From: Intestinimonas butyriciproducens
Lineage (GTDB): Bacteria > Bacillota > Clostridia > Oscillospirales > Butyricicoccaceae
NCBI RefSeq assembly: GCF_016901775.1
Contig: NZ_JACJKW010000003.1
Span: forward strand, 62,001 to 126,000
Direction of reading: 5' to 3'
Length of the DNA: 64,000 bases
Shown: positions 12,868 through 17,200 of the stretch, one piece after another
Position numbering within the stretch: position 1 is the first letter of the stretch
Layout: every line of letters starts with the position of its first letter
The notes under the pieces: model-generated
Database searches by the model: none
Told to the model about the DNA's origin: nothing
What the model saw: only the letters and a program-made list of their open reading frames with translations
Position numbers and translations under genes: made by a program

Positions 12868-14070
12868 ATGACAAAGCGTATATTTGATGATGCTCCCCTG
12901 CAAGGGGGGCTTTTGGCTCATGTGCAGCAGTGCCGCCCTCAGGGAAAAGAATTCTGCCTGATTCTGGATCAGACCATCTTCTTTCCCCGGGGAGGGGGAC
13001 AGAAATGTGATGAGGGGACCATCGGAGGAATCCCGGTGCTGGATGTGTATGAAGAAGAGGGAGAGATCCGTCACATCCTTCCCCGGGCCCCGGAGGGAGA
13101 TGAGGTGCTTTGCCGCATCGATCTGTGCACCCGTCTGTCCCACATGCAGCATCACACGGCCCAGCATCTGATCTCGGCCGCTGCCTGGCAGATGTTTCAG
13201 AACCCCACCATCATCGCCCGGATGGAGGACCCTTGGGGCCACATCGAGTTTCAGCGTCCTATGGAGGATGAGGAGCTTCTGGCTCTTTTGCGCCGGGTGG
13301 AGGAAATCGTAAAGGCCGATCTGCCCATTTTCTGCCGGTATTATACCCCGGAGCAGGCCGCGCAGATGGATGTGCGGGGCAAGATCACTCCCCATGAGCG
13401 CATCCGCCTGGTGGAGGTAGAGGGCTTTGACCGCAACGCCTGCGGCGGCACCCACTGTCCTTCCACCGGCCTTGTGGGACCGGTACGGTTTGTGGGCAGC
13501 AAAATGGTGCGGGGAGCCTACCGGCTTTATTTTGCTGCGGGACAGCGAGCCCATGACTTTGCTTTGGAGCAGGATCTGCGCACCCTCCGTCTGGGAAAAT
13601 ACACCGATGAGGAAAGCCCGGAGGATTGCGAAAAGCACATCGCCGACGCTTTGCACCGCCTGCCTGTGCTGGAAGAGAGTGTCCAGAAGCTGAGGCGGCA
13701 GCTTCTGGAGCAGACAGCGGAAAATCTGCTGCGCAAGGCATCGGAGCAGGAAGCATTCCCGGCGGTACTTCAGCTGCTGGAAGGCTGGGACAAAAAGGAC
13801 GGCAAGGCGCTGTGCGATGATCTCTTGCACCGGGGCGTCCGCTTTGTGGCCCTGGGCTTTGCAGAGGGCGAGAGCCTGGGGGTCATGGCCGCCCAGAAGA
13901 AGAGCAAAAAGATGATGCCCCTGGGCCGGGCCTTGAAGGAATTTTTCCCTGCCCATCAGGGGAAAGGGGGCGGCAGCGATGCTTTGGGCCAGGGCACCGT
14001 TCCCCTTTCGGCCTGGGAGGACTTTGCCATATTGTGTGCTCCCTTCCTTCGGGGAGAAGGGGCGGAATAA
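12868..14070 (+). CDS. Alanyl-tRNA editing protein (AlaX-L type, with DHHA1 domain)
   Basis: This 400-residue protein has the trans-editing domain related to the AlaRS editing region: the FFPRGGGQKCDEG motif, the zinc ligands in HMQHHTAQHLISA (HxxxH) and CGGTHCPSTG (Cys and His), followed by a helical linker and a C-terminal DHHA1 segment including GKGGGSDALGQG. AlaX proteins hydrolyse Ser- or Gly-mischarged tRNA(Ala). AlaRS itself is not encoded here, as the catalytic class II core is absent. The start at 12868 follows AGGAGAGA. It is probably the second gene of a transcript with the HD gene. Confidence 0.9.
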   Translation: MTKRIFDDAPLQGGLLAHVQQCRPQGKEFCLILDQTIFFPRGGGQKCDEGTIGGIPVLDVYEEEGEIRHILPRAPEGDEVLCRIDLCTRLSHMQHHTAQHLISAAAWQMFQNPTIIARMEDPWGHIEFQRPMEDEELLALLRRVEEIVKADLPIFCRYYTPEQAAQMDVRGKITPHERIRLVEVEGFDRNACGGTHCPSTGLVGPVRFVGSKMVRGAYRLYFAAGQRAHDFALEQDLRTLRLGKYTDEESPEDCEKHIADALHRLPVLEESVQKLRRQLLEQTAENLLRKASEQEAFPAVLQLLEGWDKKDGKALCDDLLHRGVRFVALGFAEGESLGVMAAQKKSKKMMPLGRALKEFFPAHQGKGGGSDALGQGTVPLSAWEDFAILCAPFLRGEGAE

Positions 14071-14736: not shown

Positions 14737-16326
14737 ATGTATGATCGGATCATCTGCGGCGGCCAAGTGATCGACGGCACGGGCAACCCGCCTTTCCGGG
14801 CCGATGTGGCGGTGAAGGATGGAAAGATTGCCTTTGTGGGTCTCCTTCCCCCGGAGGCCCAGGCCCAGGAGGTGCTGGACGCCCAGGGCCATTATGTGAC
14901 CCCCGGCTTTATCGATGCCCATTCCCATGCCGATGTGACGGTGTTCGGAAACCCTCAAAGCCACAACAAGGCAGGTCAGGGCATCACCACCGATATCAGC
15001 GGTCATTGCGGCACATCCAATGCCCCCCGGGATCAGGCCAGCCTTCGTCATGAGGAGGAAAAGCTGGGGCGGCCTGCTGGCTCCATGGGCTATCTTTCCA
15101 GCTATGGAAAGACCATTTCTCAGCTGGAAAGCATGAAACTGGGAGTAAATATGGCCCAGTATGTGGGCCACGGCTCCATTCGCGCCATCGTCTGCCAGGG
15201 GGAAAATCAGAACCGGCCTTTGACAAAGAAAGAGCTGGATCACATGGAGGGCCTGCTGAAAGAGGCCATGGAGGAAGGGGCCATGGGCGTCAGCTTCGGC
15301 CTGATCTATCCTCCGGGAAGCTATGCCGATCTGGATGAGCTGGTGGCAGCGGCCAGGGTGGCCGCCCGGTATGACCGGTCCTTCAGCGTACATATGCGTT
15401 CGGAGTCCCTGCGTCTGGTGGAATCGGTGAAGGATATGATCCAAGTGGCCCGCAGAGCCGATTGCCGGGCCCTTCTCTCCCACCATAAGGCCAAAGGCCG
15501 TGCAAATTGGGACAAGACCACCCTCACCCTGCCCCTCATCGAGCAGGCCAACCGGGAAGGGATGGAAGTGGAGCTGGATCAGTATCCCTATACCGCCAGC
15601 GCCACCTATCTGGGGGTCTATATCCCTCAGAAGTTCCAGGCCCAGGGCCGGGCCCATACCCTGGAGCTTTTGCGGGACAAAAACGCCCGCCAGGAGATCC
15701 GGAAGGCCATGGAGCAGGTCAATCCCCTGGAAGAGAGCAATTTCCAGAATGCCGGTTTTGCCGGGACGCTGATTTCCCGCAGCCCCAACCATCCCGAGGT
15801 GGAAGGGCTGACGGTGGCGGAGCTGGCGGAAAAATGGGGAAAAGATCCCTTTGACGCCGCCTTTGATCTGCTGCTGGAGGACAACTTCGACACCGACGGC
15901 ATCTATTTCATGATGAGTGAAAAGGATGTGATCCGGGTGCTGCAATACCGCCGCACCATGGTGGGCACCGACGGCGGCGGGGTCATGCCGGGACAGATCA
16001 CTCATCCCCGGATCGTGGGCAGTTTCCCCCAGATCCTGGGCCGGTATGTGCGGGATCTGGGCGTGCTGGAAGTGGAAGAGGCTATCCGGCGCATGACTTC
16101 CCTGCCTGCTCAGTTTTTCCGTCTGAAAAACAAGGGCCTGCTCCGGGAGGGTTTTGATGCCGATCTGGTGGTCTTTGATCCCCTTACCATCGGCTGTCCC
16201 AGCGATTATCATACCACCGTGCCCAACCAGGGAATAAAAGCGGTGTATATCGCCGGACAGAAAGTGGTGGAAGACAATATCTACAACGGAACCTGCGCCG
16301 GTCAGGTCATCCGGGCCGGACGGTAA
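14737..16326 (+). CDS. D-aminoacylase / N-acyl-D-amino-acid deacylase family amidohydrolase
   Basis: This 529-residue amidohydrolase has the family pattern of N-acyl-D-amino acid deacylases and dihydroorotase relatives: GGQVIDGTGNPPFRADVAV at the N-terminus, metal ligands in FIDAHSHADV, the GHCG Cys motif, SVHMRSES, LSHHKAKG, the GTDGG catalytic Asp region, and THPRIVGSFPQILGRYV at the C-terminus. Members release free D-amino acids from N-acyl derivatives; the exact substrate is unknown. The ATG at 14737 follows AAAGAGGTGG. The terminator 16338-16371 and repeat element R3 follow. Confidence 0.88.
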   Translation: MYDRIICGGQVIDGTGNPPFRADVAVKDGKIAFVGLLPPEAQAQEVLDAQGHYVTPGFIDAHSHADVTVFGNPQSHNKAGQGITTDISGHCGTSNAPRDQASLRHEEEKLGRPAGSMGYLSSYGKTISQLESMKLGVNMAQYVGHGSIRAIVCQGENQNRPLTKKELDHMEGLLKEAMEEGAMGVSFGLIYPPGSYADLDELVAAARVAARYDRSFSVHMRSESLRLVESVKDMIQVARRADCRALLSHHKAKGRANWDKTTLTLPLIEQANREGMEVELDQYPYTASATYLGVYIPQKFQAQGRAHTLELLRDKNARQEIRKAMEQVNPLEESNFQNAGFAGTLISRSPNHPEVEGLTVAELAEKWGKDPFDAAFDLLLEDNFDTDGIYFMMSEKDVIRVLQYRRTMVGTDGGGVMPGQITHPRIVGSFPQILGRYVRDLGVLEVEEAIRRMTSLPAQFFRLKNKGLLREGFDADLVVFDPLTIGCPSDYHTTVPNQGIKAVYIAGQKVVEDNIYNGTCAGQVIRAGR

Positions 16327-16337
16327 CCAATCAGGAA

Positions 16338-16371
16338 AAGAGGGTGCTTTCTTTGGGAAAGCACCCTCTTT
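16338..16371 (+). terminator. Terminator hairpin of the D-aminoacylase-like gene
   Basis: AAGAGGGTGCTTTC and GAAAGCACCCTCTT pair around a short loop. Only TTT follows before the repeat element begins (TGAGCGTGTCG), so the T-tract seems interrupted by the element. Confidence 0.8.
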
Positions 16372-16552
16372 GAGCGTGTCGAAAAAGTGGAAGACGCCAC
16401 TTTTTCGAGTTTTGCAAGGGTCTGCGTGCACGATTTTACGCACACTTGACCCTTGAGAGGTGCAAAAAGCTGCGCACAGGTCGCAGCTTTTTGCACCTCG
16501 ATTAGGAATAGGGCAAACCGCTCTCTTTTGCGATATCATTTTTGTTAGTCTG
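16372..16552 (-). repeat. Terminator-associated repeat element, copy R3
   Basis: Reverse orientation. Gene-side end CGTGTCGAAAAAG; hairpin 3 at 16379-16408; the outer stem GCAAGGGTC/GACCCTTG (16414-16455) encloses a variant apical stem (TGCGTGCACG... TACGCACA); hairpin 1 at 16461-16493 (GCAAAAAGCTG with CAGCTTTTTGC). The far end reads GGTTTGCCCT on the minus strand and then AACAAAAATGAT, a weak match to the usual end. No distal copy of the terminator is seen. It fills the convergent gap up to the orphan gene. Confidence 0.82.
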
Positions 16553-16574: not shown

Positions 16575-16865
16575 TCAGCCCTCCAGAGGGGAAAGGAGCA
16601 CATAGCCCTCCCGCTCGCCCAGGCGGAAGGAAAGCCGTCTTTCGCCCCGGGGGCCCCGGCCGCCGCAGGGAGCCAGCTGGAATCCACGCAGCCCCAGCAT
16701 CCCTTCCAGGCTCTGGCGGCATTGGTCGATAAAAGGCTCCAGACCAAACAGGGCGATCTGTTCCCGGCTTTCCCGGGAAAGCACCAAAGGCACCTCCAAC
16801 CGTTCCCCTTTGTTCCAGTTTTTCAGACTGTCTGCAAACTTCACATTGACTGTTTCAGCGTTCAT
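16575..16865 (-). CDS. Small protein of unknown function downstream of a T-box
   Basis: A 96-residue product that I do not recognise. It is soluble, with no signal peptide, Cys pair or known nucleotide-binding motif visible, and contains a Gly/Arg-rich stretch (APCGGRGPRGERR). The ATG at 16865 has GTGAGGA nine bases upstream. It is the only gene between a sigma-A promoter plus T-box leader and the next feature, which supports it being real and controlled by tRNA charging. Its residue content (2 Ile) gives no hint why an amino-acid sensor should control it. The stop lies 23 bp from repeat element R3. Confidence 0.65.
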   Translation of the reverse strand: MNAETVNVKFADSLKNWNKGERLEVPLVLSRESREQIALFGLEPFIDQCRQSLEGMLGLRGFQLAPCGGRGPRGERRLSFRLGEREGYVLLSPLEG

Positions 16866-16904
16866 GTTCTTTTCCTCACTTTCCGGTCATGTGCAAAGGG
16901 GAAA

Positions 16905-17165
16905 CAAAAAAGCCTTCGACCCGTATGAAACGGGACGAAGGCTTTGCTTTCGTTCTACCACCCATTACAACATACCAACATATGCGCCCCGGATAACGGC
17001 GGGAAACCGGCATCACTTACTAAGGGAGAAACCCTGTTCAGCCTGCGACTCCAGAGGGATCTTCCGCTATGGATTACTTGCACCGGGCTCCCACTGTCCC
17101 CGGTTCGCTGGGCCGTTCCTGCCAAAGCGTACTGTCTCTGTCAAAGTCTTTTCTTGTTTGATTGT
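16905..17165 (-). ncRNA. T-box riboswitch leader (tRNA-sensing), candidate Ile specifier
   Basis: The transcript starts near 17165. Stem I has the loop-E pair AGTA (17133-17130) and GAA (17064-17062) flanking an upper helix CGCTTTGG/CCATAGCG. The specifier strand after GAA reads GATCCC; ATC (17060-17058, Ile) is the most likely codon. An AG-rich upper loop with ACCGGGGA is present. The antiterminator contains GGG, a 7-nt bulge TGGTAGA (16960-16954) and GAACGAAAGC-type pairing; TGGT calls for discriminator A, which fits tRNA-Ile. The bulge ends AGA instead of the usual ACC. A terminator (16944-16905: AGCCTTCG... CGAAGGCT, then U's) overlaps the antiterminator. Confidence 0.85.
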
Positions 17166-17171
17166 GGGTTT

Positions 17172-17200
17172 ACTGTACCACGCTATTCTCTCTTTGTCAA
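17172..17200 (-). promoter_or_regulatory. Sigma-A promoter of the T-box transcript
   Basis: TTGACA (17200-17195), 17-nt spacer, TACAGT (17177-17172). Confidence 0.85.

Follow-up and report, generated by a model that had tools for sequence, protein, structure and literature searches.

Organisation of the locus

The window analysed in this work is a 64,000-nucleotide stretch of the Intestinimonas butyriciproducens genome, in which a small gene preceded by a long leader is found on the minus strand. Transcription is predicted to start from a sigma-70/sigma-A type promoter (17172-17200) composed of TTGACA (17200-17195) and TACAGT (17177-17172) separated by 17 nt. It agrees with the consensus at 10 of 12 positions and is the sole promoter-like site between 16300 and 17300, where 0.2 sites are expected from shuffled sequences. 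The leader that follows spans about 250 nt from Stem I to the terminator (16897-17151, or 17151-16905 in an alternative delimitation). The gene itself (16575-16865) encodes 96 amino acids, and its ATG lies 8 nt downstream of a GAGG (16874-16877) that reads as a Shine-Dalgarno-like site. It is the only gene seen between the leader and a convergent gene ending at 16326, and we consider it as coding on the basis of its codon usage and of the selection acting on one block of the protein.

Several inverted repeats were noticed by eye between positions 16337 and 16499, in the gap separating an amidohydrolase gene from the small gene. One of them (16337-16351 with 16357-16371) is probably a terminator, and another joins 16457-16474 with 16482-16499. 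A few kb away, on the plus strand, positions 12868-14070 encode an AlaX-like stand-alone protein, which matches tRNA_SAD and a portion of the model for alanyl-tRNA synthetase.

All elements of the leader are also on the minus strand. Stem I (17053-17139) was delimited from an alignment of related leaders and from pair counts; its basal helix is formed by 17139-17136 and 17056-17053. The apical hairpin, ACCGGG/CCCGGT (17104-17082), is preceded by an AGCGA stretch, and we take this apex to be the AG-bulge/GNUG-type apical loop. The specifier triplet is ATC (17058-17060), an isoleucine codon. The base 3' of it is C in both species of the genus and in two other leaders (L037 and L039), A being the commoner base. 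The antiterminator (16929-16966) consists of the helices GGG/CCC and ACGAA/TTCGT flanking the bulge UGGUAGA, in which UGGU (16960-16957) is complementary to the 5'-ACCA-3' end of an uncharged tRNA, a discriminator A (A73) being a fit predicted from the sequence. It is mutually exclusive with an intrinsic terminator (16905-16944), AAGCCTTCGTCCCGT-TTCAT-ACGGGTCGAAGGCTT and a T run, assigned from the fold and from a covarying helix (alignment columns 240-249 with 261-270), and not listed by a simple terminator scan.

Identification of the leader as an isoleucine T-box

The Rfam T-box model RF00230 did not report the leader at its gathering score over the window, nor did it match it at E values up to 10 when 501 or 266 bases were searched. 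The same model found nine other T-boxes in the genome of this bacterium, this leader not being among them. Five relatives of the leader were also scored; all matched the model but remained below the gathering score of 93 (L027, 77.1 bits; L012, 67.5; L011 of a sister species, 61.4; L022, 60.7; L039, 59.5). Rfam's T-box model thus scores members of this leader subtype low or misses them.

A covariance model named R2, built from 36 leaders from which both species of the genus were left out, gave 197.2 bits (E 2.9e-57) for the window leader and 192 bits for that of the sister species (genome G053), with 21-68 bits for eight other T-box loci of the own genome. The alignment used for pair counting comprised 30 leaders, i.e. 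those of the window and of the sister species and 28 others. In it, the six helices including the antiterminator were paired in 95.1% of 898 cells, a score that is favoured by the structure having been derived in part from the consensus of the same alignment, and two-sided changes occurred in 13 of 30 pairs (46 cells). Neither the paired fraction nor the two-sided pair changes were reached by any of 500 shuffles, while 7 of 500 attained the number of further pair types. Pairing fell to 37-54% when the partners were shifted by 1-3 columns. The antiterminator helices 5 and 6 were paired in 97.3% and 85.3% of their cells, and the terminator helix covaries as well. The fold of the leader was also better than that of 200 out of 200 shuffles (z -3.25). 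A chance hairpin is ruled out by model R2 and by the pair counts.

All leaders of the alignment but one carry ATC as the specifier (29 of 30; L026 has CTC), which rules out the alternative readings GAT (Asp) and TCC (Ser). A pattern search for tRNA-Ile gave no match, and no tRNA-Ile was annotated in the 30 loci retrieved for 46 tRNA matches. The leader has the features by which a T-box is recognised, namely a Stem I with a specifier triplet and an apical loop-type feature in conserved columns and covarying helices, and an antiterminator with a UGGN bulge that excludes an intrinsic terminator. It is confirmed as a T-box of the transcriptional class I, with a predicted specificity for isoleucine. 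We call it a T-box despite the RF00230 miss because these structural features are present, and the score of a library model reflects the detector rather than the RNA itself. The original prediction, made from the sequence alone, had proposed a T-box leader with a sigma-A promoter, an ATC specifier, a TGGT bulge and a single short downstream gene, and each of these proposals was supported. It had named the absence of a covariance hit as evidence against it; the Rfam model indeed gave none, and this outcome was overturned by the model trained on relatives.

Genes downstream of related leaders

A blastn search with the leader in 87 genomes of the family gave a match at E ≤ 0.1 in 56 of them, many of these matches being short. 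Thirty places were kept as loci, the window locus included. In the alignment of 30 leaders, 24 are followed by genes for a four-subunit 2-oxoacid:ferredoxin oxidoreductase, whose gamma subunit was identified as TIGR02175 in the one locus scanned (at L035 only later subunits were seen), and three precede a peptide-type ABC binding protein. L036 has no assigned client, and the leaders of the window and of the sister species each precede a lone small ORF.

The search was extended to 394 sampled genomes of the order, using a model (R1) that includes the window leader and a threshold of E ≤ 1e-38. It yielded 78 places in 66 genomes. The client is ileS2, encoding the type-2 isoleucyl-tRNA synthetase (IleRS2), at 42 of these, assigned 36 times by position relative to profile matches and six times by reading. 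It is the oxidoreductase at 17, a peptide-transporter binding protein at 16 and a small ORF at two, one place being at a contig edge. All 16 binding-protein leaders belong to four genomes of one genus. The lone small ORF occurs as a client only in the two examined species of the Intestinimonas genus. Other R1 matches in the own genome reached 25-87 bits, and the leader of the small gene would seem to be the sole one of its subtype there. One Ile T-box subtype could in this way be mapped across an order while switching clients between a synthetase, a ferredoxin oxidoreductase, peptide-transporter binding proteins and a mini-protein.

In the genomes of the family, and in a single one from a different family (G300), genes for the 2-oxoacid:ferredoxin oxidoreductase stand behind Ile T-boxes (L012-L025, L027-L035, L038 and L143-L145). 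This association suggests that the enzyme may have a part in supplying isoleucine, possibly through reductive synthesis from a branched acyl-CoA. In genomes G056, G060, G061 and G062, three to five copies of the subtype are present per genome (L134-L140), and every copy has a peptide-type ABC binding protein downstream. Some of their specifiers read as Leu (CTC) and at least one as Ile.

Trees were computed from 59 leaders with FastTree and from 54 leaders with IQ-TREE. The leaders of the window and the sister species, which have 82.7% identity over 254 bases, form a pair whose sister group consists of the ileS2 leaders L052 and L063 of two genomes of another family (G145 and G184), with a support of 0.993 in FastTree and of 95.8/99 in IQ-TREE (SH-aLRT/UFBoot). 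An early blastn hint had suggested that the leader came from an oxidoreductase operon of the same family. The tree sides with the ileS2 leaders, and a single clade joining the two leaders of the genus with the oxidoreductase leaders was rejected (AU p 0.016), while no rejection resulted from forcing the oxidoreductase leaders alone together (p 0.119). Four T-boxes for other amino acids and the ileS2 leaders L046, L053 and L078 fell in unexpected places in the rooted tree, so that its deep branches are untrustworthy. According to Wels et al. (PMC2494555), T-box trees are unreliable overall, but well-supported clusters can be taken as closely related, and synthetase-like T-boxes have been acquired by transporter genes.

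The small protein and its similarity to isoleucyl-tRNA synthetase

The 96-amino-acid protein belongs to no family in Pfam, NCBIfam or PHROGs (best PHROGs E 0.3), and against PDB sequences it gave one match only (E 0.65). On its own it matched nothing else at E ≤ 0.001 in the 87 genomes of the family, nor anything in the contigs of a wider set of genomes. A counterpart was found through the orthologous leader of the sister species, behind which lies a lone ORF of 146 amino acids in a different neighbourhood (DUF4914 and, by eye, a Sir2-like gene). This protein also has no family in Pfam, NCBIfam or PHROGs. The two proteins share a block of 36 residues, 16 of which are identical (E 7e-6 in a single comparison), and align poorly outside of it. 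Isoleucine is significantly rare in the sister protein (1 of 146 residues, P 0.0006) and not significantly so in the window protein (2 of 96, P 0.14).

A profile (A1) built from the two small proteins matched 82 further genomes out of 394. In 81 of these the match falls on identical model positions, the frame being in most cases about 1050 residues long; the outlier, G273, has a 58-amino-acid frame at other model positions. Against the wider genome contigs it found 13 loci, and in all nine that were read the block is preceded by HIGH and GWDTHGLPVE. GWDTHGLPVE or GWDCHGLPVE was likewise present in 18 of the 18 whole-genome loci checked. One A1 locus scanned in full passes the NCBIfam model TIGR00392 (ileS) and is closest to MupA/MupB, that is, type 2, and every matched locus that was read is an IleRS2. 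The similarity covers residues 23-53 of the window protein (16707-16799), i.e. about 31 residues matching the eukaryote-like IleRS2 right after the HIGH/GWDTHGLPVE region.

The relation was also found in the reverse direction. An IleRS2 profile gave the window protein 18.9 bits and the sister protein 3.4 bits, scores that none of 3000 shuffles attained in either case (best 2.4 and 0.8, respectively). An earlier version of the profile scored them at 19.2 and 5.1 bits, respectively; for the sister protein, a value of 5.2 was reached once among 3000 shuffles. When 1,321 stop-to-stop frames from six natural stretches were ranked with the IleRS2 profile, the window protein came first (E 2.1e-5) and the sister protein second (E 1.1). 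At the DNA level, the window gene and the ileS2 of L052 have 20 of 22 bases in common at the same residues. No support was obtained for a match between IleRS2 and the N-terminal region of the window protein, and that of the C-terminal part of the sister protein to IleRS2 region 247-293 is suggestive only (-0.4 bits, a score equalled or exceeded by 3 of 3000 shuffles).

Neither HIGH nor KMSKS occurs in the 96-amino-acid protein or its 146-amino-acid counterpart. Judging from these missing motifs, the small protein cannot charge tRNA, and we do not file it as an IleRS. The genome encodes a 936-amino-acid IleRS with HMGH and KSLGN, by reading of these motifs a type 1 enzyme (IleRS1), and a ValRS; the two synthetase matches in the sister genome are taken to be the same two genes. 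A full IleRS2 was found in neither genome, and neither R2 nor Rfam detected a T-box in the 213 bases before the 936-amino-acid IleRS gene. Background on IleRS1 and IleRS2 can be found in PMC4861432.

AlphaFold2 models of the window protein reached a pLDDT of 60.5 with an alignment of IleRS2 segments and of 72.4 (pTM 0.55) without alignment. Both depict a compact domain composed of a helix, a strand, two helices and three strands. Searches with these models gave nothing at E ≤ 0.001 in Foldseek and no match at a Z of 5 or more in VIA-align. The weak look-alikes include glyoxalase-fold and nucleotidyltransferase proteins and others, with no synthetase among the matches listed. These predicted folds neither support nor exclude descent from a synthetase.

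Origin of the small gene

We consider it probable that the locus derives from an ileS2 gene with its T-box, in which the synthetase was reduced to a small protein without catalysis that is induced when isoleucine is scarce. The original prediction had described an orphan small protein of no recognised family, which could be a new amino-acid-related factor, and had proposed a search for homologues and their T-box context. That search was fruitful, the sister species having a counterpart in the same context. The description was only half right: Pfam and NCBIfam indeed hold no family for the protein, but it could be linked distantly to IleRS2, and it is no longer an orphan. A role related to amino acids stays plausible. 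The novelty of the factor does not hold as well: a reduced ileS2 is likelier than a new unrelated factor, since a counterpart exists behind the orthologous leader and the core of both proteins matches IleRS2, the commonest client of the subtype.

Alternatively, a factor confined to this lineage and without kinship to IleRS could have captured an Ile T-box, as transporters do, and resemble the synthetase over 31 residues by chance; this seems to us unlikely. Acquisition of T-boxes by other genes is documented in PMC2494555, and is seen here for the oxidoreductase and peptide-transporter genes. The predicted fold is not synthetase-like, and the match of the sister protein to IleRS2 is weak when taken alone. 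Yet the two proteins occupy ranks 1 and 2 of 1,321 frames, the reverse profile scores were equalled by no shuffle, and the sole family matched is the very one that most often follows leaders of this subtype.

Behind this explanation ranks, as a rather improbable one, a pseudogene: the ORF would be an ileS2 in decay, with a leader that decay has so far spared. The loss of HIGH and KMSKS and the frequency of ileS2 as a client would fit such a remnant, as would the different lengths of the two proteins (96 and 146 residues) and their poor alignment outside the shared block. The two species are, however, far apart, a neighbouring protein having a best match of 58% identity and its DNA an identity of 67.6% over 629 aligned bases. 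In spite of this distance, each species has kept an open frame with a start codon and a Shine-Dalgarno-like site, and the leader is conserved at the level given above. Codon usage is gene-like as well. The window ORF scores 0.39 bits per codon in frame and negatively in the other five frames, lying between the means of 11 genes of the window (0.42-0.71) and their weakest 96-codon pieces (0.29). The ORF of the sister species scores 0.27 in frame, counted from one codon late and including the stop, and 0.04 in one opposite frame. Within the shared block, codon positions 1, 2 and 3 agree at 25, 19 and 10 of 36, and 11 of the 16 identical residues are encoded by different codons. This pattern between the two sequences shows that the block has been under protein-level selection after synonymous saturation. 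A functional small protein is thus to be preferred over a neutral remnant, which would hardly keep both frames open, in the two species examined.

It is highly improbable that the RNA itself, the leader alone or with a short read-through, is the product, for instance as a tRNA-Ile sponge with an incidental ORF: although the leader surpasses the ORF in conservation, the ORF displays protein-level constraint, and the antiterminator and terminator, needless for a sponge, are both conserved.

Discussion

The proposed reduced ileS2 cassette can be compared with several known systems. Complete ileS2 genes, encoding the eukaryote-like, mupirocin-insensitive IleRS behind Ile T-boxes, resemble the locus in leader subtype, specifier, order of leader and gene, neighbours in the tree and the 31-residue block. 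In contrast to them, the small gene encodes 96 instead of about 1050 amino acids, has no HIGH or KMSKS and leaves the rest of the enzyme unmatched. The oxidoreductase operons have the same leader subtype and Ile specifier in common with it, but theirs is a four-subunit enzyme, and its gamma subunit has no match in the own genome. HisZ, PoxA, SLIMP and SbzA are much larger proteins. The window protein keeps only a short core, unlike these synthetase paralogs with new jobs, which it would resemble in being synthetase-derived and without the usual charging role, as they are described in PMC9437257. It is also reminiscent of the hypothetical genes assigned by their T-box in Table 2 of Wels et al. 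2008 (PMC2494555), such as the 'Ile related hypothetical' LBA1071 of L. acidophilus, an uncharacterised gene; this likeness is by description and not by sequence, and the portion of that paper at hand describes no short protein derived from a synthetase. In the open-access literature, partly among the matches listed, we recognised no publication on an IleRS-derived mini-protein under a T-box.

From what is known of T-boxes, isoleucine shortage would lead uncharged tRNA-Ile(GAU) to pair with the AUC specifier and, by its ACCA end, with the UGGU bulge, upon which the antiterminator would form and the 96-amino-acid gene be transcribed. Most probably, the genus once possessed or obtained an ileS2 gene with its T-box, continued to rely on IleRS1 for charging and then lost the greater part of ileS2. 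The remaining short gene, devoid of catalysis, would have been kept as a protein, selection being apparent for one block. Its likely role, which is a guess, would be that of a starvation-induced non-catalytic helper, e.g. a binder of IleRS1 or tRNA-Ile.

We put forward, more tentatively, that a synthetase gene was whittled down to a selected non-catalytic mini-protein with its tRNA-sensing switch kept, and that this starvation-induced protein may have the remaining IleRS1 or tRNA-Ile as its target. The mini-protein would be a novel type of T-box output, to which the lone LeuA regulatory domain behind another T-box of the own genome may be a parallel. This second T-box-driven enzyme fragment was observed on contig C1, where a T-box at about 240836-241108 on the minus strand (RF00230, 82.5 bits; likely Leu specifier CTG by eye) precedes a lone 133-amino-acid stand-alone LeuA allosteric domain (PF08502, E 1.2e-32).

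The question raised is whether the mini-protein touches IleRS1 or tRNA-Ile during starvation. If the proposed origin is true, the locus would be a case of a regulatory RNA that has outlived the enzyme it served and drives a short protein derived from that enzyme.
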